Source: Sulfurimonas indica
GTDB lineage: Bacteria > Campylobacterota > Campylobacteria > Campylobacterales > Sulfurimonadaceae
Direction: 5' to 3'
DNA length: 64,000 nt
NCBI RefSeq assembly: GCF_009192995.1
Contig: NZ_SDID01000002.1
Location: 124,001-188,000 of the forward strand
Program-made: the position numbers and the translations under genes
In this document: positions 41,664-63,728 of the stretch, one piece after another
Numbering within the stretch: the first letter of the stretch is position 1
Layout: each line of letters starts with the position of its first letter
The notes under the pieces: model-generated
What the model was told of the DNA's origin: nothing
Seen by the model: only the letters and a program-made list of their open reading frames with translations
Databases searched by the model: none

Positions 41664-41690
41664 AACTAAGCCTTTTTGGCTTAGTTTTTT
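41664..41690 (+). terminator. Intrinsic terminator after flagellin
   Basis: AACTAAGCC (41664-41672) pairs with GGCTTAGTT (41678-41686), followed by a run of T. It overlaps the stop codon of the convergent maf gene. A second hairpin without a T-run, ACAAGGCT (41583-41590) with AGCCTTGT (41593-41600), lies just after the flagellin stop and may protect the mRNA 3' end. Confidence 0.8.
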
Positions 41691-43699
41691 TCTATCTCTT
41701 TTAAAAAATCTTCCAAATACTCTTTATAATATGTTATCAATCTAGTCAGTTGCGTAGTTAGCAGCTTACTAAGTTTTTTGATATGTTTTTTTGGATTATC
41801 AATCTCTTTTGTATTGATAAAATCAAAGATGTATCCGCTGACCATCTGTATGTAAAGACTAATGACTTTATCTGTATCCCCTACTTCATCTCTTCCATCT
41901 TCAGCTAAGATATCCATAAACAAGCCAAGAAGCTCATAATGAAATTTATCAAGAGAGCTAAAGTTTTTCTTTTGGAAAGAGTCAAGAAGATTTAAAATAT
42001 TTGTAGCATGCTCAACTCTTTGTTGAATGATTTTTATCTCATCATTTGATAAACCAATAGAAGAGAACTTCTTAAAAGCCTCCTGAAGCGATAAATCTGG
42101 TTTTTTTAGTGTATATTGAAGTTTAATATCTTCCATTTTTTTTGGACTTGCTTTGTAAATAGCAGCACCATTAGAGAGATTATATGTTTTTTGCTCATCT
42201 GATTGCAGTCTACTCAAAATTCCACGAAGTTCTGCTAAAGAAGCGATAAAGTGTGGTGTTGTTGGTACTTCATCTTGGAAGTTTCCTTCGGTGGTTAGTA
42301 CTGTGTCATGATAGTTGATATTTTCTTCTAAGTCAAGCACATGGTCAATATCAAGCTTTTTACTGTGAATATGTTCAGATAGATGTGTTTGCCCTGTGTC
42401 GGCATCAAGCGCCATATCAAGTCCAAGAGCATAGAACTCTTGAGCTTGGAATTTTACGGCAAGTGCATAGCTCATAATGCCAACATTGGAAGCTGTAAGT
42501 TGGCCATACCCTTTTTTTATAGTAGCTGCTGCTTGAAAAATATAGACATTCTCTTTTTCAAAAGCTTGCGCAAATTCTGGATAGGTAAAAGAGGCAAACA
42601 AAGCAATGGCGTCATTGAAAAAATCAATATTTTTAACATTTTCAAGGTGTTTCATACTCGCTTGAAATCCGTCAACATGAATGAGAATATCCGGTTTTAC
42701 ATTGTGTTTTTCTAAAAGACCCATAGTGGCACTAACGGCAATGATAGTAAAGTTATTTTGATGTTTTTCTACCCATTCTATGTTGTTTTGAAGTGATGGT
42801 CCTGCAGCGAGTAAAAGAACAGGATGTTTCTGTAAAAGAGCCATTTGGGAGAGAGCTTCAATATTTACATATTTATATCCATCTTTAATATAATCAAGTG
42901 GACGTAAATATATCTGCATAACAGCTGAGTGCGGAAACTTGAGATAATCTTGTGAGATGATCACACTATGGATAATTTTGAGCTTATCAGTAGAATGACT
43001 TAATAGTTGAAAATATTTTAGGTAATGGTTATAGATAGGCATTTCTCTTAAAAAGGCCTGGATTTTATAGCGAAAGATATCATTATCGTCAAAGATAGAG
43101 AAGATGAGTGTCGCACCATTGTTTGTCAACGCCTTATAATCTGTTACAAACAAAGAGAGATAAAAAAGTTCCAAGTCATCTTCTACGATAAAATATGTGT
43201 AAGCATTGATTTTCTCATGTACTTTCGTAAGATGGAGACCAAGCCCTACTCCCATAAAAATAAACTTATAGAGTTTTTTCATCGTTGTATCTTTGTTCGC
43301 AAACTGATTTGTATAGTTTACAATAGGTGCAATTGTGACAATTGCAGATTCCAAAGGGTTCATTTTTTCATATTTTTGAAGCATTTCTTCGCTAAAGGAA
43401 AGATCTCTAAAAGTTTCAAACAGGTTGTCTTTCTTGGAAAAATCAATATGCTCTTTCACCATCTGCGCATGCTTATTGCTATCCATATTATAGAGCCACT
43501 TTCCACTCTCAATCTCTACTACATCAAAGTAACCTTCTTCTTTATATTCGAGCTCATATCTTGGTGTGTAGTATTGATTTTGCAGTGCATTTTCAAAGGC
43601 TGTAAGTTGATTATAAAGACCTTGATATTCTGCTTGGAAGTAAAGCATATTATTTTTATAGGTGTTTTGCGCTTGGGTTTCGATTGAGGAGTTATCCAT
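41681..43699 (-). CDS. Maf-family motility accessory factor (flagellin nonulosonic acid transferase)
   Basis: A 672-residue DUF115/Maf protein. The core contains VLLLAAGPSLQNNIEWVEKH, IIAVSATMGLLEKHNVKPDI and LIHVDGFQ, the nucleotide-sugar-binding fold related to sialyltransferases and MptE, followed by FYALGLDMALD. Maf proteins transfer pseudaminic or legionaminic acid to flagellin Ser/Thr in the cytoplasm before export. It is the last gene of the eight-gene overlapping run and shares one base with legF. Its convergent neighbour is the flagellin gene. Confidence 0.9.
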   Translation of the reverse strand: MDNSSIETQAQNTYKNNMLYFQAEYQGLYNQLTAFENALQNQYYTPRYELEYKEEGYFDVVEIESGKWLYNMDSNKHAQMVKEHIDFSKKDNLFETFRDLSFSEEMLQKYEKMNPLESAIVTIAPIVNYTNQFANKDTTMKKLYKFIFMGVGLGLHLTKVHEKINAYTYFIVEDDLELFYLSLFVTDYKALTNNGATLIFSIFDDNDIFRYKIQAFLREMPIYNHYLKYFQLLSHSTDKLKIIHSVIISQDYLKFPHSAVMQIYLRPLDYIKDGYKYVNIEALSQMALLQKHPVLLLAAGPSLQNNIEWVEKHQNNFTIIAVSATMGLLEKHNVKPDILIHVDGFQASMKHLENVKNIDFFNDAIALFASFTYPEFAQAFEKENVYIFQAAATIKKGYGQLTASNVGIMSYALAVKFQAQEFYALGLDMALDADTGQTHLSEHIHSKKLDIDHVLDLEENINYHDTVLTTEGNFQDEVPTTPHFIASLAELRGILSRLQSDEQKTYNLSNGAAIYKASPKKMEDIKLQYTLKKPDLSLQEAFKKFSSIGLSNDEIKIIQQRVEHATNILNLLDSFQKKNFSSLDKFHYELLGLFMDILAEDGRDEVGDTDKVISLYIQMVSGYIFDFINTKEIDNPKKHIKKLSKLLTTQLTRLITYYKEYLEDFLKEIEKN

Positions 43700-44385
43700 T
43701 ACTTTCCTTGAATTAAAAATGTAGCAAAATCAAAATCGAGTTGTGTATCTATATCTACTGACTCTTTTTGGGGCATAATATAAGCATAAATATTTTTTTC
43801 TAAAAAAAATGTATCTTGTGTTAAGAGTAGCTCTGTTTTTGCTATATAAATTGCACCATTGAGTCTATAGTACTGTTTGAGTTCTTGACTACGTAAATTT
43901 AGCAATTTTTGGTCCAAAAATCCTGACATACTGTTGTTTTCTCCAAGAGTATTACTCCATAATGGAGAGTGCTCGACCTCACAAACAGATATGACAGCAT
44001 CAGCCTCTTGTTGAACTAATAATTCAATCGCTTCATCTATATGTTTTTTCTCACGTAAGGGACTTGTCGGTTGTAGAAGTACAACATAGTCATAACTGGA
44101 AAATATATTCAGGGTATGTTTGATAACATCTATGCTGCTAGCTGTATCATTGGCTAGTCTATCAGGCCTTTTAATAACTTGCAGAGCATTTTGTTTTGCT
44201 ATTGAGAGTATCTCATTATCATCGCTTGAGACAACTACTTCATCAAGATACCTACTCTTTTTAGCAGCCTCAATGCTCCATGTAATCAAGGGTTTCCCTG
44301 CTAATGGTAAGATATTTTTACGAGGAAGGCGTTTGCTACCACCTCGAGCAGGAATAACAGCTAAAAAAGTTTTACCATCAAGCAT
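43699..44385 (-). CDS. legF: CMP-N,N'-diacetyllegionaminic acid synthase (NeuA-like)
   Basis: A 228-residue cytidylyltransferase: AVIPARGGSKRLPRKNI is the CTP-binding loop, LQPTSPLREKKHIDEAI and YRLNGAIYIAKTELLL are typical of the NeuA/PseF/LegF group, and VDIDTQLDFDFA is the C-terminal metal motif. It activates a nonulosonic acid with CTP. The specific call as legF rests on its neighbours (legB, C, H, I, G and ptmE); PseF-like proteins look similar. Shares one base with ptmE upstream and with maf downstream. Confidence 0.83.
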   Translation of the reverse strand: MLDGKTFLAVIPARGGSKRLPRKNILPLAGKPLITWSIEAAKKSRYLDEVVVSSDDNEILSIAKQNALQVIKRPDRLANDTASSIDVIKHTLNIFSSYDYVVLLQPTSPLREKKHIDEAIELLVQQEADAVISVCEVEHSPLWSNTLGENNSMSGFLDQKLLNLRSQELKQYYRLNGAIYIAKTELLLTQDTFFLEKNIYAYIMPQKESVDIDTQLDFDFATFLIQGK

Positions 44386-45431
44386 TAAAAGATCTCTCCA
44401 TATTCATTTTGAGCCTGTTCAAAGTCACTCATGCGTCCAATATCGAGCCAGTACTCATGAATAGGAAAAGAGATAGATTTGAGCTTATCTTGAATGATAT
44501 CATTAAAGAGTGTTGGCATATCATAAAACTCATTTTTTGGAATATATTCAAAAACCTGTGGAGAGAGTACATAGATACCGGCATTGACAAAAAACTTGTG
44601 TACAGGTTTCTCTTTGATGGAGATGATCTTACTTCCGTCTGTTTCAATGACACCATAAGGTACTTGATAATCATATTCTCGAACACACATTGTTGCTACT
44701 GAGTGCTCCATCATATGAAAGTCAAGTAGATGCTCGAAGTTGACATTTGTAAGCAGATCAGCATTCATCACAAAAAATGGTTCTTGTGGTCTCTCTTGCA
44801 TAAGTGAAAGTGCCCCTGCTGTACCTAAGCGTTTTGATTCCTCGATATATTCAATATTTACGCCAAGACTTGCACCATCACCAAAATACTCTTTTATCAT
44901 TTCTGCTTTATAGTTGACACTGATAGTAATATTTACAAATCCATACTTTGCAAAATTTTCTATAATGGTCTCTAAAATAGGTTTGTTTCCAACCTTTAAT
45001 AGTGGTTTTGGTACATCCTGCGTGAGGGGATGGAGTCTTGTACCGAGGCCTCCTGCCATTAGGATGACACGATTGCTTTTTGCATTTGTTTTTAAGAGGT
45101 TTGAGAGCTCTTCTATCTTGACAAGTCTTCCTTCATCATCAACGATGGGAATTTGATAGATTTGTTTACGAATGGCTTTTTGGACAATGAGCTCTTTTGA
45201 GTCATTGATATTTGCCAAAGTTGGCTCTTTAAAGTAAAGTCCTTCTATGCTAGAGTCAAGAGTAAGACCATTTAAGAGTCCACGACGGATATCGCCATCG
45301 GTCAGTGTTCCTACAACTTTTTCATCTTCATCAAGTACGATGGCAATACGCATAGCACCTTTGTCTATTACCTCCAAAGCCTCTTTAATGCTAGAGTTTT
45401 TTCTTAGTAAGATATTTGTATAATTATTCAT
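44385..45431 (-). CDS. ptmE: CBS-nucleotidyltransferase PtmE-like (sugar-1-phosphate activation for legionaminate)
   Basis: A 348-residue fusion of two CBS repeats (about 1-115; KVVGTLTDGDIRRGLLNG) and a nucleotidyltransferase domain (about 120-345) opening VILMAGGLGTRLHPLT with PKPLLKVGNKPI. The same architecture is PtmE of Campylobacter, which makes GDP-glucosamine at the start of the legionaminic acid route. It overlaps legG by 8 bases. The CBS domains may give allosteric control by a nucleotide. Substrate is inferred from context. Confidence 0.8.
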   Translation of the reverse strand: MNNYTNILLRKNSSIKEALEVIDKGAMRIAIVLDEDEKVVGTLTDGDIRRGLLNGLTLDSSIEGLYFKEPTLANINDSKELIVQKAIRKQIYQIPIVDDEGRLVKIEELSNLLKTNAKSNRVILMAGGLGTRLHPLTQDVPKPLLKVGNKPILETIIENFAKYGFVNITISVNYKAEMIKEYFGDGASLGVNIEYIEESKRLGTAGALSLMQERPQEPFFVMNADLLTNVNFEHLLDFHMMEHSVATMCVREYDYQVPYGVIETDGSKIISIKEKPVHKFFVNAGIYVLSPQVFEYIPKNEFYDMPTLFNDIIQDKLKSISFPIHEYWLDIGRMSDFEQAQNEYGEIF

Positions 45432-46590
45432 TACAGTCCTTTATGGTATGAAATTTTTTGATTAAAAGATCTTGCAGGGAAACACTTTTTAAAACCTCTA
45501 TAATTTGCTGTGATGTCTCATGGGAAGATTCATAGGGATTTATGTTGTGTTGCAGTTTTTCTTGCAGAGTTGGTGTATATATCTGTGCTATTGCTTTTTG
45601 AATACTTTGTTTATCAATAGAAACATTGATAACAGATACTGCCTGGAGTCGTCCCTCTTGACGCTTACCAATATTGATAGTTGGTTTTTGAAAACTAGGT
45701 ACTTCCAAAATACCACTTGAGCTGTTTCCTATAACTCCGTCAACATATTGTATGGCACTAAAATATCGAAGTTGCCCGAGTGATGTGAAAACAATAGCAT
45801 TGGTATGTTCACTGATAAATGTATCTATCATAGAGTTGATGATAGTACCTCCTGTGTCGGCATTTGCTTTGGTGAAAATAAGGAGTGTATCATCAAGGTC
45901 TTCAAGTGCATCTAGAAGCTCTTGAAACTGTTCTTTTGGAGAGAGCGCAGCGAGTGTTTCTGGATGGTAGGTTATAAGTAGATTTTTTTCTTTGAGTTTT
46001 ATACCTATGGACTCTTCAAATTCTTCTCTGTTTAGAAGTTTGAGTTTTTTAATATTTTCAATACCAAGTGCCCCGATATTGTGTACTCTCCAAGGTTCTT
46101 CACCCATTTGTAAGACTCTTTTTTTATACTCCTGTGTCGCAGTAAAGTGAAGATGTGACAGTTTTGTAATTGCGTGACGAAGAGCATCGTCCATTGCTCC
46201 TTGTGTTACTTCCCCTCCATGAATATGTGCTATTGGAATGTGCAGTATTGTAGCTGTTGCAGCGACACTAAGCATCTCATATCTATCTCCTAAGATAACA
46301 ACTATATCAGATTTTAGTTCTGTAAGTGTTTGTGTAAGCTCTGTTTGCAGTTTGGCCATTGCCAAAGAGTTACTTTGTGGTCTGTTTTCCTCAAGGGGAA
46401 GAGGTATTTTTGCACTGATAGTGAAACACTTTTCTATCTCTTCATAAGTGTTGCCAAAACTTTGAGAGAGATGAGCCCCAGTTACTATGAGTTGTAGTTC
46501 TAAATTTGCATCAGCATCAACTTTTTTAATCAGAGGCTTTAGCAATCCATACTCTGCGCGCGTTGCAGTAACGAGGGCTATCTTTCTCAT
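45424..46590 (-). CDS. legG: Hydrolysing NDP-sugar 2-epimerase LegG (NeuC-like)
   Basis: A 388-residue UDP-GlcNAc 2-epimerase-family enzyme: VTATRAEYGLLKPLIKK, VILGDRYEMLSVAATA, IAHIHGGEVTQGAMDDALRH and VIGNSSSGILEVPSF are hallmarks of the hydrolysing NeuC/LegG/PseG-type branch. In the legionaminic acid route it releases the NDP and inverts C2 to give 2,4-diacetamido-2,4,6-trideoxymannose. It overlaps legI by 4 bases and ptmE by 8. NeuC (sialic acid) is an alternative reading, but the neighbouring dehydratase and aminotransferase argue for LegG. Confidence 0.85.
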   Translation of the reverse strand: MRKIALVTATRAEYGLLKPLIKKVDADANLELQLIVTGAHLSQSFGNTYEEIEKCFTISAKIPLPLEENRPQSNSLAMAKLQTELTQTLTELKSDIVVILGDRYEMLSVAATATILHIPIAHIHGGEVTQGAMDDALRHAITKLSHLHFTATQEYKKRVLQMGEEPWRVHNIGALGIENIKKLKLLNREEFEESIGIKLKEKNLLITYHPETLAALSPKEQFQELLDALEDLDDTLLIFTKANADTGGTIINSMIDTFISEHTNAIVFTSLGQLRYFSAIQYVDGVIGNSSSGILEVPSFQKPTINIGKRQEGRLQAVSVINVSIDKQSIQKAIAQIYTPTLQEKLQHNINPYESSHETSQQIIEVLKSVSLQDLLIKKFHTIKDCNE

Positions 46591-47585
46591 ATCATATCAT
46601 CTTTGGCATAATTTTTTTGTGCGATACTTCCTAGAATCTCATCCCACTTCATAGGGCTGATTCCACTACCGGGGCGTTTGACATCAAGATTGTCTTCGCG
46701 GAGAACTTCCCCTTCTTTAATCTCTTTTGCCGCAACGATACTTTTACGTGCTACTGTGATATTTGGTGTTTCACTAGGAGATGGTTTTTTCTCAGAAGAA
46801 CCAAGTGCTTTTTCGATATTACGGATGGAGTGTACCATTGCTTTGAGCTCATCTGGTTCTAAAGAGGCTTTATGATCAGGACCAGGCAGTGTACGTGAGA
46901 GGGTAAAGTGTTTTTCTATTACACTTGCTCCCATTGCAACAGCTGCTATAGGGACCTCGATGCCTAGGGTATGGTCGCTGTAGCCAACGGCTACGTCAAG
47001 CTCTTTTTCAATACTGAGCATTGCCCGCAGGTTTACATCTTCCATAGGTGTTGGGTACATTGTATTTGCATGTAATATGGTAATATTTTCTTTTTTTGTT
47101 CCGTTGCAAAGAAGAACATGAAAAGCATCTTTTACTTCTTGCATTGTTGCCATTCCTGTTGAGAGGACTACTTTTTTATCAAGCCTAGCAATAGCACGCA
47201 AGTAGGGCAGGTTAGTGATTTCACCACTTGGAATTTTAAAAATTTCTAAATCCAAATCATTTAAAAGTTCTATGCTTTCTAAGTCAAAAGGCGTGGAGAG
47301 AAACATGATGCTCTTGCTTTGACAATACTCTATAAGCTCTTGATGTACTGCAGTATCGAGTTCAAGTTTTTTAAGCATCTCAAACTGTGAGTCATCCTCT
47401 TCTTGCATGTTTTTTTGCTGATAGGCTGCTTTTTTAGCACTTTTGCTGACAAGTTTCTCAGCTTTAAATGTTTGAAACTTTACTGCATTCGCACCGGCAT
47501 CACTGGCTACATCGATAAGTTGTTTAGCAAGTTCTATACTGCCGTTATGATTTACACCAGCTTCAGCAATGATAAAAACACTCAT
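46587..47585 (-). CDS. legI: N,N'-diacetyllegionaminic acid synthase (NeuB-like)
   Basis: A 332-residue NeuB-family synthase that condenses PEP with a 6-deoxy-diacetamido-mannose. The TIM-barrel part has IIAEAGVNHNGSIELAKQL, NAVKFQTFKAEKL, FKIPSGEITNLPYL, GYSDHTLGIEVPIAAVAMGA and VIEKHFTLSRTLPGPDHKAS; the C-terminal SAF (antifreeze-like) domain ends DNLDVKRPGSGISP. All are diagnostic of the NeuB/LegI/PseI family. LegI is preferred because of the adjacent legG, legB and legC. Overlaps legH and legG by 4 bases each. Confidence 0.87.
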   Translation of the reverse strand: MSVFIIAEAGVNHNGSIELAKQLIDVASDAGANAVKFQTFKAEKLVSKSAKKAAYQQKNMQEEDDSQFEMLKKLELDTAVHQELIEYCQSKSIMFLSTPFDLESIELLNDLDLEIFKIPSGEITNLPYLRAIARLDKKVVLSTGMATMQEVKDAFHVLLCNGTKKENITILHANTMYPTPMEDVNLRAMLSIEKELDVAVGYSDHTLGIEVPIAAVAMGASVIEKHFTLSRTLPGPDHKASLEPDELKAMVHSIRNIEKALGSSEKKPSPSETPNITVARKSIVAAKEIKEGEVLREDNLDVKRPGSGISPMKWDEILGSIAQKNYAKDDMI

Positions 47586-48154
47586 TTTACAAGACTCCCG
47601 GCTTTTATAAATCCTTCCAAAATGATTCCCTGTTTTGTAGTTACACCACTCCCGACAAAGCTATTGGCTTTTACAAGGACATTACCATTAAGTACGGAAG
47701 CTGTTGATATATGACAATTATCTTCTACTATAGTGTCATGCTCTAGAAGTGTTTTAGAATTGATGATGCAGTTTTTTCCAACTTCTGCACCTGCATTTAC
47801 AAGGGCGTGATGCATAACAACTGTCCCTTCACCAATTGTTGCATGTTCTGAACAATAGGCAAGAGGAGAGATGATTGTTGGAATAGTAAAATCAAGGGCT
47901 TTGAGCTTTTCAAAAAGTTTGATGCGAACAGAGTTTGACTTTATATGTCCAATAGTGATGAAAGCGTACTTATAACGCTTGCGTAACTCCTCCAAATCAT
48001 CATCACAGCCGATTAGCGGGTAGTTTAAAACAGCTTGAGATTCTCCTGTAAATTTTTCAATAATACCGGCTATCTTAAAGCGTTTTTCCTGTTCTATGAC
48101 ATCAATGACACTTTTGCAGTGTCCACCACCACCAATAAGTAGAATCTCTTTCAT
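47582..48154 (-). CDS. legH: Sugar O/N-acetyltransferase LegH (NeuD-like, left-handed beta helix)
   Basis: A 190-residue acetyltransferase with a short N-terminal Rossmann part (KEILLIGGGGHCKSVIDVIE) and C-terminal hexapeptide repeats (HATIGEGTVVMHHALVNAGA; NSFVGSGVTTKQGIILEG). This is the PglD/NeuD/LegH type that N-acetylates the C4 amino group formed by LegC. It starts within one base of the legC stop and overlaps legI by 4. Confidence 0.83.
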   Translation of the reverse strand: MKEILLIGGGGHCKSVIDVIEQEKRFKIAGIIEKFTGESQAVLNYPLIGCDDDLEELRKRYKYAFITIGHIKSNSVRIKLFEKLKALDFTIPTIISPLAYCSEHATIGEGTVVMHHALVNAGAEVGKNCIINSKTLLEHDTIVEDNCHISTASVLNGNVLVKANSFVGSGVTTKQGIILEGFIKAGSLVK

Positions 48155-49293
48155 TATAATCTTACTCCACTTGGGATATTTACTATTTTTTCTTGTAACT
48201 CTTTAGAATTTTTCAGTCCATCGTTATAGCATTCGTGGAACATAGTAAGTTCACTCAAAAGCTTCCATACTGGACGACTCATAACTCCATGTTTATTGCT
48301 AAATTCCAAAAAAACATCTCTCTGTTTTTGATTCTCAAAAGAGATGGCATTGAGCCAATAGTTGCTTTGTGCTTCTTGTGGCTCTTGAATGAATGCTATA
48401 TCGTCAAAATTTTCAAAAAACTTTTTATACTCTTCTGCCAAGGCTCTTTTATCAGCTAAAAATCTCTCAAGCTGTTCCATCTGGGCGACAAGAAGTGCTG
48501 CATTGATATTTGGCATACGGTAGTTAAAGCCTATCTCATCGTGTATGTATTCCCATTGATGAGGTACCTTTGCTGTTGTCGTGATATGTTTTAAATGTTT
48601 TGCCAATGCTTCATCATCTGTTACAATCACACCGCCTCCGCCTGAAGTGATGATTTTATTACCGTTAAAACTAAAAACACCCATTTTCCCAAAGGTCCCC
48701 GTATGTTTGTTTTTATAAAAACTTCCCAGGCTTTCAGCACTGTCTTCAATCAGTGTGATACGCCATGCTTTACACAGAGAGGCTATAGTATCAATTTCGC
48801 AAGGGTGTCCAAATGTATGCATCGGTACACAGGCTTTAATTGTTTTGCCACTTTTTTTGTTTTTGCACTGACCATTTTGGATAACACAATATTCTTCTAA
48901 AAAAGTTTGCAGTGCTTTGACACTCAAGCCTAAAGTAGTTTTATCTACATCTAAAAAAACAGGCTCTGCACCGCAGTAACTGATAGCGTTACTTGTTGCT
49001 ATAAAACTCAAAGCCTGCGTGAGGACTTCATCTCCCTGCGTTACTCCTGCAAGCTTTAAAGCTGCATGGAGGGCAGATGTGCCATTAACACAGGCAATAG
49101 CATATTTACTGCCAACATAATCGGCAAACTCCTCTTCAAAACGTGTGACAAATTTGCCGACAGAAGAGACAAAAGTAGAGTCTATACATTCATTGAGGTA
49201 TCTCTTTTCATTACCTAAAAAACGAGGTTCATGGAGAGGGATAAATGCTTCTGTGTTATAGAGTTTATGAATAAAGTCAGTAATTTCTTGCAT
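48154..49293 (-). CDS. legC: PLP-dependent NDP-4-keto-6-deoxysugar aminotransferase LegC
   Basis: A 379-residue DegT/DnrJ/EryC1 aminotransferase. Landmarks: CVNGTSALHAALKLAGV (PLP phosphate binding), FLDVDKTTLGLSVKAL, LIEDSAESLGSFYKNKHTGT (the Asp that contacts the pyridine N) and the catalytic Lys in FSFNGNKIITSGGGGVI. The motif NYRMPNINAALLVAQME follows. It converts the LegB 4-keto product to the 4-amino sugar. The gene shares one base with legB and with legH. Confidence 0.87.
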   Translation of the reverse strand: MQEITDFIHKLYNTEAFIPLHEPRFLGNEKRYLNECIDSTFVSSVGKFVTRFEEEFADYVGSKYAIACVNGTSALHAALKLAGVTQGDEVLTQALSFIATSNAISYCGAEPVFLDVDKTTLGLSVKALQTFLEEYCVIQNGQCKNKKSGKTIKACVPMHTFGHPCEIDTIASLCKAWRITLIEDSAESLGSFYKNKHTGTFGKMGVFSFNGNKIITSGGGGVIVTDDEALAKHLKHITTTAKVPHQWEYIHDEIGFNYRMPNINAALLVAQMEQLERFLADKRALAEEYKKFFENFDDIAFIQEPQEAQSNYWLNAISFENQKQRDVFLEFSNKHGVMSRPVWKLLSELTMFHECYNDGLKNSKELQEKIVNIPSGVRL

Positions 49294-50480
49294 TACATCT
49301 TTCCGTCCAAATATTTTTTCTTATCTTCATATTCAAAATTTGGTAGAAGTTTGAAAAACTCTGCAACGATTGCTTCTTTGCTCCACGTGTGTTGTGTTTG
49401 CATTTTTTCAAGTTCACTTTCAAAATCTTGAAGTTTTTCTGCATCAAAATCAAGCTCATTTTTGATAATACCAAGATTGTTAAATCGTTCCATATCAAGA
49501 GTCTCATTGTCAGTAAAGAACTCTTCAAAATCCTTTTCGCCTGTTGTATCACTTTTTGTAAAAAGACAGGGCCATTTTCCTTTTTGAGGTAATGTTTTTG
49601 CAAGCTCTCTGGCTTCATCTTCACTTTTACACAAATAAGGTTCATACCCTTTTTCTTTGAGGTATTTTACAGCGATATCCGAAAAAGATATCAAGTGGAG
49701 GGCTTCACTGAGTTTTGGAAAAAAGATATCTCTGTTTTGGCCAAAAAGTGCACTCATCAAGCAAAGTTCACCACTCTCTTTTGGTGTGACAAAATAGCGT
49801 TTTACATCGTTTGGTGCGACAATAGGTTGTTTTTTTTCAAGCCGCATATTAAAGCTGTGAAGCAAGGAACCATCACTAAAAGCGACATTGGCAAAACGAG
49901 CCATAGAAACTTCGATATCAAGCGAGTTTCGATGGACAAACATCTCCATTATCCGCTTGCTTGCTCCCATCATATTGACAGGATTTGCTGCCTTGTCTGT
50001 TGAGACACAAAAGTATTTTTTTACACCTTTGCCACTTGCTTGCTTGAGAGTTTTGTCAGTATTGAAGATATTGACCTCACACATACGCATCAGCGTGTAA
50101 GGGTCTTTTTCACTGCGGACATGTTTGAGTGCCGAGAGATTTAAAATATAGTCATATTTCCCATCATTTTCAAAAAAAGCATCATATATTTGGCTGCCGA
50201 TATCGAGTGCAAAAGTGGCAAATTCTCCATCGATGTAGCCGTAAGAGCTGCGAACATCTCGAACAAGTTCAGCAAGATTGTTTTCAGCAATATCAACAAC
50301 ATGAAGTTTCTTTGGATTACGAGAAAATATCTCTTTAACAACGGCACTACCAATGCTTCCAGCACCTCCAAGAACTAAAAAGCGGGAATTGCTTACAATG
50401 GTGCTGAGCTCTTTGTCATAGAGAGTAATATCATCATTAAAGAGTTCTTTTTCTCTACCGATTAGGTGCAGTATGCTCAC
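49293..50480 (-). CDS. legB: NDP-GlcNAc 4,6-dehydratase LegB (CapD/Polysacc_synt_2 type)
   Basis: A 395-residue extended SDR. VLGGAGSIGSAVVKEIF is the NAD-binding turn and VSTDKAANPVNMMGASKRIM is the CapD/FlaA1/PseB-type active site (Met replacing Tyr, with Lys). About 45 residues precede the NAD-binding fold and about 70 charged residues follow the catalytic domain. It removes water to give the 4-keto-6-deoxy sugar. The start is GTG 50480 with AAAGG seven bases upstream. First gene of the run; divergent from fliD with 143 bases between. Confidence 0.8.
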   Translation of the reverse strand: MSILHLIGREKELFNDDITLYDKELSTIVSNSRFLVLGGAGSIGSAVVKEIFSRNPKKLHVVDIAENNLAELVRDVRSSYGYIDGEFATFALDIGSQIYDAFFENDGKYDYILNLSALKHVRSEKDPYTLMRMCEVNIFNTDKTLKQASGKGVKKYFCVSTDKAANPVNMMGASKRIMEMFVHRNSLDIEVSMARFANVAFSDGSLLHSFNMRLEKKQPIVAPNDVKRYFVTPKESGELCLMSALFGQNRDIFFPKLSEALHLISFSDIAVKYLKEKGYEPYLCKSEDEARELAKTLPQKGKWPCLFTKSDTTGEKDFEEFFTDNETLDMERFNNLGIIKNELDFDAEKLQDFESELEKMQTQHTWSKEAIVAEFFKLLPNFEYEDKKKYLDGKM

Positions 50481-57075: not shown

Positions 57076-57669
57076 ATGGCAAGAGTTACAAAAGAAGAAA
57101 GAAAAAATGGAATTATTTCTGCTGCGTTGAAGCTTTTTTCTGAAAAAGGCTTTTATATTACAACTATTCCTGATATTGCTGAAAAAGTTGGTATGAGTGT
57201 TGGTAATTTTTATAACTATTTTAAATCTAAAGATATTTTAGCAAAAGAGCTTGTTTTATATATTTCGGAATATCTTGGTAATCAGATTCGTGAGATAAAT
57301 GATAGAGAGATATCAACAGAGGAAAAAATTTATGAAATAATCTCTATGTATTTTAATATGGCGGATGAGAAGCCTGAAATGATAGAGTATTTTTTACGTG
57401 TTTACCTTTCAAATCGTGAAGTGTTTGGTGATGGATGTGAGGGGATGATATGTGTTTCTCCTTTTGTAACTGAAATGATGATGTTTTTTAATGATGGTGT
57501 TGCAAATGGAGACTTACATGATCAAGATTTTTTTTCAGCTTTTGGTCTCTTTATGGGCTATCTTGGAGGTATGGTTTTTCTCTTTGGAGAAAAAATATTG
57601 CCTGAACCGTTAGAGTGGTATAAAGAGTCTATATCACAAAATATTTACAATGCACTCAAAACAAGATAA
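57076..57669 (+). CDS. TetR/AcrR-family transcriptional regulator
   Basis: A 197-residue regulator. The N-terminal helix-turn-helix (GIISAALKLFSEKGFYITTI; AEKVGMSVGNFYNYFKSKD) is classical TetR; the C-terminal ligand/dimer domain (60-197) is all-helical with two Cys in DGCEGMICVSPFV. It overlaps the start of a hydrogenase small subunit by 20 bases with no separate ribosome site there, so regulator and hydrogenase are translationally coupled. It may regulate itself and the two hydrogenase operons; the ligand is unknown. Confidence 0.93.
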   Translation: MARVTKEERKNGIISAALKLFSEKGFYITTIPDIAEKVGMSVGNFYNYFKSKDILAKELVLYISEYLGNQIREINDREISTEEKIYEIISMYFNMADEKPEMIEYFLRVYLSNREVFGDGCEGMICVSPFVTEMMMFFNDGVANGDLHDQDFFSAFGLFMGYLGGMVFLFGEKILPEPLEWYKESISQNIYNALKTR

Positions 57670-58555
57670 CAAGCCACGTCTTCTTTGGCTTCAGGGTGTT
57701 ACATGTAATGGTAATACCCACTCCTTTTTAAATCTTCCCTATCTGCCACTTCTTTTGGATAAGTTTGAAGTGCTTTACTATCCGGCTATGGAAGCATTAC
57801 ATAGTTTTGAAGAGATATCTGCATGTAAGCTCTCATGTGATGTACTCATCTTTGAAGGAGCATATGATCCATTGATGAAACGTAACGGTGTTTTTATGAA
57901 AGAGATGCTTGCTCATTATGCAGCTACTGCAAAACATATCGTTGCCGCAGGGACTTGTGCAAGTTTTGGAGGTATGTTTAAAGAAGCAGCTTCGCATAGA
58001 AATAGTGGTATTTTATTTAATGAAGAAGAGATGAATGGACCTCTTCTTAAGCATAAAAAACGGATTATTAATCTTTCAGGTTGTCCCATTCACCCTGAAT
58101 GGATGGGGTATACATTAAGTATGATTGCCAATGATCAAACAGTTATAACTGATGAATTGCATCGTCCTGTAGAATTATATAGTAATTTAGCACATCATGG
58201 ATGTACACGAAACGAATATTTTGAGTGGAAGGTTGATACTAAAGGTTTTGGTCAGAAAGAGGGATGTTTGTTTTATGAACAAGGCTGTCGTGCTCCTATG
58301 ACACATGCATCATGTAATAAAATACTTTGGAATGAGGTGAGCTCAAAAACACGAATTGGTACACCCTGTTTTGGATGTACCGAACCCGACTTTCCACGAA
58401 CAGAACTCTTTCAAACAAAAACCAATATGTCAATACCGGAAGATGTACCATTAGGTGTTCCTAAAAGAAGTTATCTTACAATGGCGGGAATTGCAAAGAC
58501 CTTTCATATAAAACGTTTAGAAGGAAAGCTAATTGATTACAAGACAACTGATTGA
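57650..58555 (+). CDS. Cytoplasmic [NiFe] hydrogenase small subunit, group-2 (HupS-like)
   Basis: A 301-residue small subunit without signal peptide or C-terminal membrane helix, so cytoplasmic. The proximal-cluster motif reads C19-N-G-N22 (VTCNGNTHSF): the second Cys of the usual CxxC is Asn, as I recall for cyanobacterial HupS. Other ligands are present: GTCASFGG, LSGCPIHPEW, HHGCTRNEYFEW, GCLFYEQGCRAPMTHASCNK and GTPCFGCTEPDFP. The last segments read like group 2 HupS rather than exported HydA/HyaA. No ribosome site precedes ATG 57650; coupling to tetR is likely. Confidence 0.9.
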   Translation: MHSKQDNKPRLLWLQGVTCNGNTHSFLNLPYLPLLLDKFEVLYYPAMEALHSFEEISACKLSCDVLIFEGAYDPLMKRNGVFMKEMLAHYAATAKHIVAAGTCASFGGMFKEAASHRNSGILFNEEEMNGPLLKHKKRIINLSGCPIHPEWMGYTLSMIANDQTVITDELHRPVELYSNLAHHGCTRNEYFEWKVDTKGFGQKEGCLFYEQGCRAPMTHASCNKILWNEVSSKTRIGTPCFGCTEPDFPRTELFQTKTNMSIPEDVPLGVPKRSYLTMAGIAKTFHIKRLEGKLIDYKTTD

Positions 58556-59834
58556 ACAGATTGAGGGTGAAGCATCTGTATATTTTGATATAAAAGAGAA
58601 AAAAGTTAATTTTGCAACAGTAACTTTCCCACATTTTAGAGGTATGGAGTCGATACTTGAAGGTAAAAATGCCCTTGATTCTTTGGTTATTAGCCCTCGA
58701 GTATGTGGTATATGTGGGCATGCGCATTTAATGGCAACTGTACGTGCATTGGAAGATGCTTACAAAAATGCAGGTTGTGAAATTATTCTTTCAGAAAAAG
58801 CAGAAAAAATTCGAGAATTTACTCTTATTATGGAAATGATACAAAATCATTTTAAATGGCTTTATATTGTTATTATTCCAGAACTTGCTAAATTGACAAA
58901 TAGCATCCTAGAAAAAAAACCACTAAAAGGAGCGTATGCAGCCTCTTTAGCAGCAAAAGCCATTGCTATTTTTGGTGGACAATGGCCACATTCGTCTTAT
59001 ATGATTCCAGGTGGAGTAACATGTGATCCTACACAAATAGATATATTACAGGCTCAAAATCATATAGATGAACTTATATCATTTTTTGAAAGAGAGAGTT
59101 TAGGTATAGCACTAGATAAGTTTTTATCTTTTGAATCTTGTAAAGATTTTAATAAAGAGATACAATCAGACATTACTTTATTAGAAGAAAGTTTAATTGT
59201 TGCTGACATGAATCATAAAGGTTTAGCATATGATAGATTTATAGTTATGGGTGAGCATGATTTTACGCATGTTGCAAAATTAAAACAAACAAGAGCTTTT
59301 GGAGTAGATAGCAAGTACGTATCAACAGTAGAAGCTTATTCTCCACAAGAAAATACATATGCTTATAATGCTCTTTATAAAGATGAATATTATGAAACAG
59401 GACCACTTGCTAGAATGATGTCTATCTCTCTACCTATTATAAAAAATATGCATAGAAGATATAAAGATAGTGCTTACTCACGAGTTATGGCACGTGTGTT
59501 TGAGATAGGATATATGCTTAACTATGCAAAAGAACTGCTTCAAAATATAGATATTTTACAAGAGTCAGTAGTTAATGTAGCAGATATAAAAAAAATCTCA
59601 GCATCTGGTCTGGGTATAGTGGAAGCTCCTCGTGGTCCACTACTCCATAATATAGAAATTAAACAGGGTATTATTCAAAACTATAAAATTATTACACCTA
59701 CACAGTTTAATATTGGGAGTTCTACAATAGAAAAACCAACATCTGTACAAATTGCTATGAAAGGGACAACAAAAGAGGATGCGCTCTTTATCTTTCGTAC
59801 ATTTGATGTTTGTTCCGTCTGTACTACTCATTAA
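58533..59834 (+). CDS. Cytoplasmic [NiFe] hydrogenase large subunit lacking a C-terminal extension
   Basis: A 433-residue large subunit. L1 is RVCGICGHAH (C58, C61), IFGGQWPHSSYMIPGGVTCD and EAPRGPLLHNIE match group 2 enzymes. The C-terminus is FDVCSVCTTH with the chain ending at H433: C427, C430 and the His are kept, but Pro of DPC is Val and there is no cleavable tail, as in the H2-sensing HupV/HoxC proteins. No maturation protease would be needed. Ile between the L1 cysteines also occurs in HoxC. Start TTG 58533 overlaps the small subunit by 23 bases. The gene is noticeably richer in ATA and TTA codons than its neighbours. Confidence 0.88.
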   Translation: MITRQLIEQIEGEASVYFDIKEKKVNFATVTFPHFRGMESILEGKNALDSLVISPRVCGICGHAHLMATVRALEDAYKNAGCEIILSEKAEKIREFTLIMEMIQNHFKWLYIVIIPELAKLTNSILEKKPLKGAYAASLAAKAIAIFGGQWPHSSYMIPGGVTCDPTQIDILQAQNHIDELISFFERESLGIALDKFLSFESCKDFNKEIQSDITLLEESLIVADMNHKGLAYDRFIVMGEHDFTHVAKLKQTRAFGVDSKYVSTVEAYSPQENTYAYNALYKDEYYETGPLARMMSISLPIIKNMHRRYKDSAYSRVMARVFEIGYMLNYAKELLQNIDILQESVVNVADIKKISASGLGIVEAPRGPLLHNIEIKQGIIQNYKIITPTQFNIGSSTIEKPTSVQIAMKGTTKEDALFIFRTFDVCSVCTTH

Positions 59835-59895: not shown

Positions 59896-59901
59896 TATAA
59901 T
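59896..59901 (+). promoter_or_regulatory. -10 box for the hydABC operon
   Basis: TATAAT in AAAAAATATAATATCTG, in the 96-base spacer after the cytoplasmic hydrogenase; about 69 bases before ATG 59970 and 30 before the alternative ATG 59931. Confidence 0.5.
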
Positions 59902-59969
59902 ATCTGTTTAAGTTATATCAGGATAGCATAATGAATGATTATTCATTTAATGTAAAAAAGGAGTTGGCT

Positions 59970-61205
59970 ATGGCAGATAGAATAGAGGGTGTAAAAAAGC
60001 TTTTTACATCTAAAAGTGCACGTGTTGAAACAAACAAAGGTGATGCTTACTATGACAAATTGTTTCAAACATGTCAGGCAAGAGTCGAAGAGTTGAAGAC
60101 ACAGCAACCTATAAACAATAGGTTGGATATAGAGGATGTGTTAGAAGCACATGGAATAGAGAGACGTGATTTTTTAAAATGGGCTAGTGCTGTAACAGGT
60201 ATGCTAATGCTGCCAGCTTCTTTTACTCCTCTTGTAGCAGATGCTGCACTGCTTATGAATAGGGCACCGGTTATCTGGTTAGAACTTCAAGATTGCGCAG
60301 GTAACTCTGAGGCATTATTACGCTCTGATGGGCCAAAAATTGATGAAATTGTTTTAGATATTATCTCTTTAGAGTTCCATGAAACACTCCAAGCTGCTTC
60401 TGGACATCAAGCAGAGAAACAACTTGAAGATGCAATGGAACACTTTAAAGACAAGTACTTACTATTTGTTGAAGGATCTATTCCTATGGAAATGGATGGT
60501 CAATATGGTACTATTGGTGCAAGTGCAGAAACATTTTATGATCATTTAATGCGTGTTAGTAAACATGCTGCTGCAATTGTTGCAGTTGGCTCTTGTGCTA
60601 CATTTGGTGGTGTGCCTGCAGCTTCTCCAAATCCAACAGGAGCAGTAGGTGTTATGGACGTTATTAAAGGAAAACCTATTATTAATATTCCAGCATGTCC
60701 TGCTAACCCAGCAAATATGGTTGGTGTAATCATTCATTATATTTTAACTGGTCAAGTTCCAGAACTAGATTCATTGTTACGTCCTAAATTTGCATTTGGT
60801 TATAGAATTCATGATAACTGTGAAAGACGTGCACACTTTGATGCTGGTGAATATGTAGAAGAGTGGGGTGATGAGGGTGCTAAAAACAACTTTTGTCTCT
60901 ACAAAGTTGGATGTAAAGGTCCTATGACATTTAATAACTGTTCAATCGTTAGATATAACGAAGGTGTTAACTGGCCTATCGGTGTTGGCCGCGGTTGTAT
61001 CGGTTGTTCTGAACCAGATTTCTGGGATAAATATGCGTATGAGCGCCCAATGGCAGATGCAAATATTAAAGCACCAACAGGCGGTGTTGAAAAAACTGTT
61101 GATGAGTTTGGTTTAGGTTTGTTAACAGCAGCAGGTATAGGTATTGGTATTCATGCAGTAGCAAGTGCATTGGCAGGTAAGAAAGAAGATGGAGGAGAGG
61201 TATAA
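59970..61205 (+). CDS. hydA: Exported [NiFe] uptake hydrogenase small subunit
   Basis: About 411 residues, group 1-type. The Tat motif ERRDFLKWAS is about 62 residues from the start, after a long N-terminal part typical of Campylobacterota HydA. The proximal motif is C109-A-G-N112 (LQDCAGNSEALL), Asn again replacing the second Cys. Other ligands: VGSCATFGG, IPACPANP, HDNCERRAHF, FCLYKVGCKGPM, TFNNCS and GRGCIGCSEPDF. A C-terminal membrane helix (about 378-400) anchors it to the periplasmic face. AAAAAGGAG before ATG 59970 is stronger than AGGA before ATG 59931; the latter adds 13 residues and is possible. Confidence 0.93.
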   Translation: MADRIEGVKKLFTSKSARVETNKGDAYYDKLFQTCQARVEELKTQQPINNRLDIEDVLEAHGIERRDFLKWASAVTGMLMLPASFTPLVADAALLMNRAPVIWLELQDCAGNSEALLRSDGPKIDEIVLDIISLEFHETLQAASGHQAEKQLEDAMEHFKDKYLLFVEGSIPMEMDGQYGTIGASAETFYDHLMRVSKHAAAIVAVGSCATFGGVPAASPNPTGAVGVMDVIKGKPIINIPACPANPANMVGVIIHYILTGQVPELDSLLRPKFAFGYRIHDNCERRAHFDAGEYVEEWGDEGAKNNFCLYKVGCKGPMTFNNCSIVRYNEGVNWPIGVGRGCIGCSEPDFWDKYAYERPMADANIKAPTGGVEKTVDEFGLGLLTAAGIGIGIHAVASALAGKKEDGGEV

Positions 61206-62983
61206 TGGCAAAAAAACATATTATAGTAGATCCAATTACTAGGATTGAAGGACACTTGAGAATTGAGGCAGTAATTGATGAGAATAATACAATTGTAGAT
61301 GCTTACTCTTCATCTACAATGTTTAGAGGTATTGAGACTATTCTTCAAGGACGTGACCCACGTGATGCAGGTCTTTTGGCAATGCGTATTTGTGGTGTGT
61401 GTACGGGTACACACTATCAACGCTCTATAGAGGCGGTAGAAGATGCTTTTGATATTACTATTCCTAAAAATGCACGTTTAGTTCGTAACTTAATTCAGGG
61501 TGCACTCTATATTCATGATCACCTTGTGCACTTTTATCATCTTCATGCTCTTGATTTTGTTGATGTTGTTTCAGCTCTTTCTGCTGATCCAAAGAAAACT
61601 GCAGTTGAAGCTGAAAAATGGGCAGGAGTATCTGGTACTTCTCCATATATTTCAGGAGCTCCTGCATTTCAAGAGATTCAAGATAGAGTGGCAAAATTTG
61701 TAAAACAGGGTCGTCTTGGAATCTTTGGAAATGGTTACTGGGGTAATAAACATTATAAATTAACACCAGAGCAAAACCTCATTGGTGTTGCACACTATTT
61801 AAAAGCTCTTGATATTCAAAGAGATATGGCTAAAATGCAAGCAATTTTTGGTGGTAAAAATCCACACCCACAATCAATTGTAGTTGGTGGTGTTACTTGT
61901 GTACAAGATATTCAAAATCCTGCTCGTATAGCACTTTTTAAATCACTTTTAAAAGAGAGTACGAAGTTTATAAAACAGGCATATCTTCCAGATGTTTATA
62001 TGGCAGGAACTATGTATGCTGATGAGGCAACAGATAGTAGTGCAACATTTACTGAACTTATGAAAGGTAAAGGTGTGGGTGGAACTGGTGGAGGACTTTT
62101 AAGTTATATGACTTATGGTGATTTCCGTCTTGATGATACTGGTTTTTATAAATCTGCACTTCTTTTCCCTTCAGGTGTTGTGTATGATGGTGATTTATCT
62201 AAGGTTCACGAAGTTGATCCAGATAAAATTGCTGAAGATGTTACACATGCATGGTATGAAGGTGATAAACCATTGCACCCATATGATGGAGAAACGATTC
62301 CTAAATATACTGGACTTGACAAGCATGCTGATGGTATGGCTTATTTGAAAACAGATGAAAAGTACTCTTGGATTAAATCTCCGATTTATGATGATAAACG
62401 TGTAGAAGTTGGACCACTGGCTCGTATGGTTGTAGGTGTTGCAAAAGGTGATGAGAGAATTACAAAGTATGTAACAAACTTCTTAAAACGTGGAAACTTG
62501 CCAACATCTGTACTCTTTAGTACAGTAGGACGTACAGCTGCTCGTGCAATAGAGACAGAGCTTATGGCTGATGTTATGATGGATTGGGTAGATGAATTGG
62601 CTGCGAATACTGCGAGTGGTGACTTGAGTACATGGACTGACTTTGACTTTGATAAAGTAAGTGTAAATACAAAAGGTCGTGGTATGGCAGAAGCTCCTCG
62701 TGGTGCTTTAGGACACTGGGTTAGAGTTGAAAATGGAAAAATTGCTAACTATCAAGCCGTAGTTCCATCAACATGGAATGCAGCTCCAAGAGATTATAAA
62801 GGTCGCTTGGGTGCATATGAAGCATCACTTATCGGTACTAAAGTTGCTGATCCAGAACAACCATTAGAGATTATTCGTACAATCCATAGCTTTGACCCTT
62901 GTATTGCTTGTGCAGTGCATGTTGTTGATACAAAAGGTAAAGAACTTGGTGTCTATAAAATAGATACCGGGTGTAGTATTTAA
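61205..62983 (+). CDS. hydB: Exported [NiFe] uptake hydrogenase large subunit
   Basis: A 592-residue catalytic subunit with no signal of its own, co-exported with HydA. Motifs: DPITRIEGHLRIE, L1 MRICGVCTGTH (C63, C66), FGGKNPHPQSIVVGGVT, EAPRGALGHW, and L2 SFDPCIACAVH (C566, C569, H572). A 20-residue tail beyond His572 would be removed by a maturation protease. It oxidises H2 and passes electrons through HydA to cytochrome b. It starts on the last base of the hydA stop (TAATG). Confidence 0.97.
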   Translation: MAKKHIIVDPITRIEGHLRIEAVIDENNTIVDAYSSSTMFRGIETILQGRDPRDAGLLAMRICGVCTGTHYQRSIEAVEDAFDITIPKNARLVRNLIQGALYIHDHLVHFYHLHALDFVDVVSALSADPKKTAVEAEKWAGVSGTSPYISGAPAFQEIQDRVAKFVKQGRLGIFGNGYWGNKHYKLTPEQNLIGVAHYLKALDIQRDMAKMQAIFGGKNPHPQSIVVGGVTCVQDIQNPARIALFKSLLKESTKFIKQAYLPDVYMAGTMYADEATDSSATFTELMKGKGVGGTGGGLLSYMTYGDFRLDDTGFYKSALLFPSGVVYDGDLSKVHEVDPDKIAEDVTHAWYEGDKPLHPYDGETIPKYTGLDKHADGMAYLKTDEKYSWIKSPIYDDKRVEVGPLARMVVGVAKGDERITKYVTNFLKRGNLPTSVLFSTVGRTAARAIETELMADVMMDWVDELAANTASGDLSTWTDFDFDKVSVNTKGRGMAEAPRGALGHWVRVENGKIANYQAVVPSTWNAAPRDYKGRLGAYEASLIGTKVADPEQPLEIIRTIHSFDPCIACAVHVVDTKGKELGVYKIDTGCSI

Positions 62984-62993
62984 GGGAGTAATT

Positions 62994-63728
62994 ATGAAAC
63001 CTAAATATAAACAGGTTAAAAGAATGACAGCTTTTATGCGACTCAACCATTGGGTGGTCGCATTTAGTATGATTGGTGCAATTGTTACTGGTTTATACAT
63101 AGGTCATCCTTATTATGCAACATTGATTGCTGAACCAGCGGTAGTAAAATATGTAATGGCATGGAATCGCTGGTGGCATTTTATCATTGCTATTATCTTT
63201 GATGTAAGTAGTATAGTAATCGCATATTTATACTTCTTCTCTCGCTTTGAAAAGCCGTATAAAAAGATTTTACCAACTAGTAGCAATATAAAAGAATTTA
63301 TGGAAGTTCTTTTAAATCTCGTTACGCTTAACAGAAGAAAAAAGTTTGACTCTACACATTCAGATAGTTTCAATACAGTCTATTTTCTGATTTTTCATTT
63401 GTTGCTTGCGTGGATGCTTTTAACAGGATTACAACTTTATGTGCATGGTTTAGAATCCGGTCTCAGTTCTATTGGTAACTGGTGGCCGTGGATGCTTCAC
63501 TTAGTAACAGATTGGACACTTCCTGTATCATCTTGGATGGTCGGTTCTACTGCAACAGGTGTAAATGTGATGGATGTTCGTATAGTGCATCATACGACTA
63601 TGTGGCTTGTTATTGCCTGGATTGTGTTTCATATCTACTATCAAGTATGGCGTACAATTTTCTGGAAAGAAGGTGATATTACTATTGTTGTTGGTGGTTC
63701 TAAATTCGTACAAGAGAATAAAGCTTAG
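62994..63728 (+). CDS. hydC: Ni/Fe-hydrogenase cytochrome b subunit
   Basis: A 244-residue membrane protein of the HyaC/HydC type with four to five helices. Candidate heme ligands are in MRLNHWVVAFSM, RWWHFIIAIIF, LIFHLLLAWML and RIVHHTTMWLVIAWIVFHIY. It carries electrons from the periplasmic HydAB to menaquinone, consistent with the mqnD gene in this window. GGGAG precedes ATG 62994, 10 bases after hydB. The stop codon lies within the stem-loop of a terminator. Confidence 0.95.
   Translation: MKPKYKQVKRMTAFMRLNHWVVAFSMIGAIVTGLYIGHPYYATLIAEPAVVKYVMAWNRWWHFIIAIIFDVSSIVIAYLYFFSRFEKPYKKILPTSSNIKEFMEVLLNLVTLNRRKKFDSTHSDSFNTVYFLIFHLLLAWMLLTGLQLYVHGLESGLSSIGNWWPWMLHLVTDWTLPVSSWMVGSTATGVNVMDVRIVHHTTMWLVIAWIVFHIYYQVWRTIFWKEGDITIVVGGSKFVQENKA

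Follow-up and report, generated by a model that had tools for sequence, protein, structure and literature searches.

A tetR-hydS-hydL Cassette Ahead of the Uptake Hydrogenase Genes of Sulfurimonas indica as a Likely H2-Sensing Module

Gene Organization at the Locus

The stretch of DNA analyzed here (the window, 64,000 nucleotides) belongs to a 2.09-Mb, Sulfurimonas-like genome and carries, on the forward strand, three overlapping genes positioned directly ahead of a group 1 hydABC operon. The first of these, tetR (57076-57669, 197 residues), encodes a TetR-family regulator recognized by its TetR_N domain (Pfam PF00440, 57 bits). It is followed by hydS (57650-58555, 301 residues), which encodes the small subunit of a cytoplasmic group 2 hydrogenase (PF14720 and PF01058, NiFe_hyd_SSU_C/Oxidored_q6), and by hydL (58533-59834, 433 residues, TTG start), which encodes a tail-less group 2 large subunit (PF00374, NiFeSe_Hases). 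The gene coordinates bear out the overlaps of 20 bp between tetR and hydS and 23 bp between hydS and hydL that were claimed in the initial annotation. That annotation also described the regulator as fused by overlap to the hydrogenase; the genes do overlap, but a fused protein is encoded at none of 80 named loci. Downstream lie hydA (59970-61205; TIGR00391, 448 bits) for the group 1 small subunit, hydB (61205-62983) for a group 1 large subunit with a C-terminal tail, and hydC (62994-63728) for a cytochrome b subunit whose counterpart in S. paralvinellae is annotated as a cytochrome b/b6 domain protein. All three genes, also on the forward strand, are predicted targets of the regulator. A hydA start at 59931 falls on the edge of the palindrome discussed below, and relatives begin at an ATG equivalent to window position 59970, which is probably the true start.

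Two other features of the neighborhood deserve mention. Beyond hydC, a 641-residue protein (L281:4779-6704) carries zinc-finger-like motifs similar to the N-terminal region of HypF, and shorter relatives of it occur in the hydABC clusters of other families. At window 41681-50480, between flagellin and flagellar cap genes, a sugar-nucleotide cluster encodes NeuA/NeuB/NeuC-like proteins, an aminotransferase, and a motility-associated protein-like product; it probably serves flagellin glycosylation.

The Hydrogenase and Regulator Proteins

Alignment of HydL with its relatives shows invariant active-site Cys residues at positions 58, 61, 427, and 430, along with invariant Glu11 and Arg367. The C-terminal end reads FDVCSVCTTH, and the terminus ...FRTFDVCSVCTTH runs straight into the stop codon, in agreement with the earlier observation that the subunit stops directly after DVCSVCTTH. 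All complete relatives likewise end right after the second CxxC plus three residues and have no tail. The final residue is His, or Gln or Lys in a few relatives; this replacement of the metal-site His is seen at loci L073, L077, L098, L193, L202, and L204. Since the clade is found throughout the class and its C-terminus is near-invariant, the arrangement seen here is not a chance event in one genome. HydS has nine invariant Cys residues and an invariant His182 across 93 loci, placed where ligands of a proximal, a medial, and a distal FeS cluster would be expected, with Asn22 instead of Cys as the fourth proximal ligand, and it has no Tat signal. The cassette contains no dedicated protease gene, and HydL has no tail to be cleaved. 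A second group 2 hydrogenase of the same genome, on contig C31, is tailed and followed by a protease-like gene. This enzyme (L280:806-8239) is encoded between hypD and a GGDEF/EAL gene, in an operon that opens with a nickel-transporter-like gene and has a palindrome copy at its beginning. The L1 motif of HydL is PRVCGICGHAH, and its CGIC had been taken as a trait of H2 sensors. That argument fails because CGIC is also present in tailed group 2 enzymes of Thermus, Runella, Sulfobacillus, and contig C31 itself, so the motif lends no support to sensing.

The assignment of the regulator to the TetR class is secured by both the TetR_N domain and an all-helical TetR fold. Its AlphaFold model (pLDDT 86) has TetR proteins as top PDB matches at Z of about 20 (Z 20.0 to 3pas and 19.5 to FadR 3whc). 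The effector half of the protein (conservation 0.69) and the DNA-binding half (0.66) are both well kept, and the mean identity of TetR (0.64) is higher than that of the large subunit (0.47). Cys121 and Cys126 are present in 93 of 93 relatives and also in the TetR proteins of genomes that have no HydSL. The loop that holds them is modeled at a pLDDT of only about 50-60, as expected if a partner or cofactor is missing from the model. Taken with the fold model, the conserved effector half and the invariant Cys loop suggest a constant partner or cofactor of TetR.

Distribution and Inheritance of the Cassette

Relatives were sought in 200 genomes of the family and 397 genomes of the class, and gene order was read in 101 distinct loci and in a named GTDB set of 80 loci. 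Full-length HydL relatives (42-75% identity) occur in about half of the 200 family genomes, and the clade is found in 113 of the 397 class genomes, in ten family-level groups. It is near absent from the two largest family-level groups, f2 and f3, which in size and gene content resemble Helicobacter and Campylobacter (G498 is an exception). The named loci come from Sulfurimonas, Sulfuricurvum, Sulfurovum, Nitratifractor, Arcobacter-like genomes, and Poseidonibacter. The HydL relatives form one clade (100/100) across free-living Campylobacteria and are always tail-less.

The gene tetR stands directly upstream of hydS in 99 of 101 loci, and the other two (L057 and L082) end at a contig edge. In the named set, this adjacency with an intact cassette is seen in 70 of 80 loci, eight are interrupted by contig ends, and the last two (L145 and L162) keep TetR and hydS with genes inserted ahead of hydL. 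Among contig-complete loci, HydSL without TetR was not found. The adjacency of tetR is therefore conserved class-wide, and the module is not peculiar to S. indica; a relative with an upstream TetR is already in print for S. multivorans (PMC5357620). The earlier remark that a TetR is near and a kinase is not also holds up, with the TetR gene occupying the position of a signal partner in all complete loci. The inserts in the two Sulfurovum-type loci (L162:4007-7004 and L145:1243-3071) are foreign genes that encode a DNA cytosine methyltransferase, restriction-like proteins, and others, and leave the reading frames of both hydS and hydL intact; the TetR of L145 is itself truncated by the end of the contig. 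At L165:1-937, other genes immediately precede hydL.

The uptake hydrogenase next door is a less constant neighbor. A hydA gene lies within 1.5 kb of the cassette in 76 of 99 loci, and the downstream hydABC operons fall into two types that are 52% identical to each other, with at least six switches of type along the hydL tree. Pairwise identities correlate strongly between TetR and hydL (r 0.82) and poorly between TetR and HydB (r 0.24) or between hydL and HydB (r 0.28). Judged from these correlations and the type switching, TetR together with HydSL is the unit of inheritance, set before different uptake hydrogenases. A 49.8-kb plasmid of S. paralvinellae (L097, NZ_CP041407.1) bears the cluster tetR-hydSL-hydABC-hyp, and a gene for a site-specific integrase lies close upstream of tetR there.

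A Palindrome at the hydABC Promoter

Between hydL and hydA lies the predicted TetR operator TGAATGATTATTCA (59932-59945), which is palindromic, without strand, and has the flanks A...TT. It abuts a likely -10 element of the hydABC promoter, CATAAT (59927-59932, forward strand), a candidate recognized by inspecting the sequence and an alignment of promoters from relatives, which have TATAGT or TATATG at this position. The candidate is rated weak because a consensus promoter scan of the region, which gave no more matches than shuffled sequence, did not list it. In many hydABC promoters the palindrome is preceded, at constant spacing, by a second conserved box, about TAATATTTGTTTAAGTTAT (window 59900-59917), which may be a -35 region or an activator site. 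The operator of Bacillus FadR may resemble the palindrome, a likeness that is not used as evidence here.

When the best match was taken at each of 98 loci, 32 were exact, 18 had one mismatch, and 23 had two, so that 73 of 98 fell within two mismatches, a level reached in about 2% of random 240-bp windows from the same loci. Copies in family f5 are poor (three to four mismatches). The exact 16-mer TGAATGATTATTCATT occurs at 30 sites in 28 of the 397 class genomes, compared with one site for the reversed control. A comparison by hand placed all 28 of these genomes among the 113 hydrogenase carriers, an overlap whose chance probability would be roughly 1e-15 for independent genomes, although the genomes here are not fully independent. 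Of the 30 exact sites, 24 lie before a hydA gene of one type or the other, however far from the cassette, and two lie before a nickel transporter-hypB operon. Four sites lie away from hydrogenase genes, all in family f7; one is before a porin gene, and three f7 genomes (L284:4001, L285:4001, and L287:4001) have the exact palindrome in one conserved convergent gap.

S. indica has a single exact copy in its genome, the one in the window. A copy with one mismatch is found 27 bp before hypA. Copies with two mismatches precede the operon of the nickel transporter, hypBCD, and the second group 2 hydrogenase by 40 bp and a maturation protease gene by about 45 bp. Genome-wide, two-mismatch sites are mostly intragenic and number 34 against 22 for a reversed-pattern control, so they were rejected as operators in general and our claim is limited to sites 25-45 bp before hydrogenase genes. 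General autoregulation of tetR was also rejected, with an upstream palindrome within two mismatches in only six of 99 cases and within three in 16 of 99.

Because the palindrome is rare at the tetR promoter, HydSL does not appear to be under its own switch and would be made whether the uptake hydrogenase is on or off, as is fitting for a sensor. This placement bears on the proposal that HydSL is a catalytic group 2d hydrogenase that passes low-potential electrons to ferredoxin for the reverse TCA cycle, with TetR as its local regulator. Publications have put such a role forward for both Campylobacterota and Aquifex (PMC5401914, PMC4584964), and the NiFe and FeS ligands are conserved. Yet in most genomes the palindrome is at hydABC and not at the promoter of tetR-hydSL, the cassette stands before two different hydABC types, and the soluble fraction of S. 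denitrificans shows no H2 uptake even though Suden_1437 is transcribed (PMC4149538). We regard the catalytic role as quite unlikely. Nor do the relatives fall within a well-described catalytic clade in which tetR comes and goes, as published work has not settled what the clade does, and tetR is kept throughout.

Genomes lacking the cassette or the hydrogenase provide controls. In genomes without the cassette, hydA promoters have at least three mismatches in 24 of 28 cases. One of the exceptions, G053, has a one-mismatch palindrome and no hydSL but keeps the cognate TetR next to hydABC. With these promoters mostly free of the palindrome and G053 retaining its regulator, the palindrome can be said to follow TetR. 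At hydA copies located away from the cassette in cassette-bearing genomes, the palindrome is present within two mismatches in seven of 12. The suggestion in the initial annotation that TetR controls the adjacent hydABC thus gains support from two sides, the conserved adjacency of tetR and the palindrome on hydABC promoters of TetR-bearing genomes. On these comparisons, TetR very probably controls a hydrogenase regulon through the palindrome.

What TetR responds to is a separate matter. A search with TetR turned up G507, where a cognate TetR adjoins hydABC in the absence of hydSL. A further orphan, in G135, is flanked by a group 4-like hydrogenase gene and by hypF, bringing the orphans without HydSL to three genomes, two of them with TetR beside a palindrome-bearing hydABC. 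These orphans mean that TetR may act on another signal, such as nickel supply, a redox carrier, or an acyl-CoA-like ligand, in which case HydSL would be an ordinary co-transcribed enzyme. Nickel uptake and hyp genes in the regulon would suit this explanation, as would the presence of fatty-acid regulators such as FadR among the nearest folds. On the other hand, TetR always accompanies HydSL in complete contigs and the two co-evolve, the three orphans stand against 113 genomes with the hydrogenase, and HydL has no processing tail. A signal other than H2 is in our view unlikely.

Proposed Mechanism and Significance

We favor the reading in which tetR-hydS-hydL is an H2-sensing cassette whose TetR is the repressor of a hydrogenase regulon. 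TetR would bind TGAATGATTATTCA next to the likely -10 element of hydABC and repress, rather than activate, the group 1 uptake hydrogenase, and through weaker palindrome copies it would also act on hypA, the nickel transporter-hypBCD operon, and the maturation protease gene. By analogy with HoxBC, which serves the kinase HoxJ in this way, HydSL is likely the H2 sensor of its co-encoded TetR and would supply it with the H2 input. Reduction of HydSL by H2 would then change TetR by contact or electron transfer, perhaps at the Cys121/Cys126 loop, and the operator would be released. A more specific version, which we offer tentatively and consider rather doubtful, is a direct relay in which H2 oxidation would transmit either electrons or a change of conformation from the FeS chain of HydSL to Cys121/Cys126, as a thiol switch or a bound FeS cluster, to free the operator. 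Such a relay could amount to a gas-to-DNA switch that needs neither kinase nor second messenger and that governs the hydrogenase regulon of the class.

The observations that count against the favored reading are the expression data from S. multivorans, the TetR orphans, the poor matches in family f5, and G352, a genome of the same genus as G507 with an exact palindrome and no cognate TetR. Some cassette-bearing genomes also have hydABC copies without a palindrome. Expression of hydB in S. multivorans is seen whether or not H2 is added, under nearly all conditions, and almost no hupL transcript is present (PMC5357620), though Sulfurospirillum is able to produce H2 itself (PMC6242987). One could conclude from the S. 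multivorans data and from the persistence of the palindrome in G352 that the cassette is little used, with a dispensable hydrogenase partner and an hydABC operon that is constitutive in practice. The strong class-wide conservation of TetR (mean 64% identity, above that of the hydrogenase) and of the HydL C-terminus makes this highly improbable.

Whether the class-wide cytosolic group 2 hydrogenase is a sensor or a source of reductant for the reverse TCA cycle is a long-standing question in Campylobacterota. Its role has been called speculative (PMC4584964), assigned to rTCA reductant (PMC5401914), and assigned to sensing (PMC2628731). For the TetR encoded upstream of hupSL in S. multivorans, it has been suggested that it might repress hupSL itself (PMC5357620). 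In the literature searched, we found no report of a TetR hydrogenase regulon, an operator, or a TetR partnership for this hydrogenase; the main new piece of evidence here is the palindrome. The sensing reading yields a specific and inexpensive test consisting of one regulator, one palindrome, and a target list of hydABC, the nickel transporter-hyp operon, hypA, and the protease gene. If it is true, major primary producers of vents and redoxclines would sense H2 via TetR and not via a HoxJ/HupT kinase relay. This would be another way of placing gene expression under H2 control, and it would offer a compact component for genetic circuits that respond to H2.

Comparison with Known Systems

The cytosolic hydrogenases already described in Campylobacterota as group 2 or 2d, namely Suden_1437, S. 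multivorans HupSL (SMUL_1421-1422), and Nautilia GAmH_0548-0549, very probably belong to the same gene family, and the guesses at their role (rTCA reductant or H2 sensing) conflict. In S. denitrificans, the published primer for Suden_1437 corresponds to the peptide CGICGH, and Suden_1437 lies beside hydAB (PMC4149538), so this "cytoplasmic hydrogenase" is very probably a member of the clade. The Campylobacterota enzyme has been labeled both 2D (PMC5401914) and 2b (PMC7952632). The group 2b sensors, HoxBC with HoxJ and HupUV with HupT, resemble HydSL in being cytoplasmic two-subunit hydrogenases with a tail-less large subunit and no protease gene of their own, and they too are encoded with a signal partner and sometimes directly before a group 1 hydrogenase (Afipia). 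They differ in that the partner gene of HoxBC/HupUV loci encodes a kinase-like ATP-binding protein where a TetR stands here. The large subunit has DVC here and DPC there, and the small subunit starts with CNGN here and with CGGC in HoxB; a further difference is a length about 50 residues shorter here. The CNGN start is shared with the tailed Thermus and Runella enzymes. In the tree, HoxC/HupV form their own clade (100/99), separate from the Campylobacterota clade, a placement that favors independent loss of the tail in HydL and HoxC/HupV; a tree that joins the two is not rejected, however (AU p of 0.07), and a common origin may still apply. Among proteins of solved structure, the best relative is Hydrogenase-2 of the Huc type (7utd/7uur). 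Compared with the tailed, group 2a-like cytosolic uptake hydrogenases, HydSL has no cleavable tail and no dedicated protease gene. As for the regulator, it shares its fold (Z 19-20) with TetR repressors of known ligand such as Bacillus FadR and, like them, has a palindromic candidate operator at a promoter. In contrast to such repressors, the cassette TetR has no known small ligand; its effector and DNA-binding halves are conserved to the same degree, it has an invariant Cys pair, and it is genetically tied to a hydrogenase.
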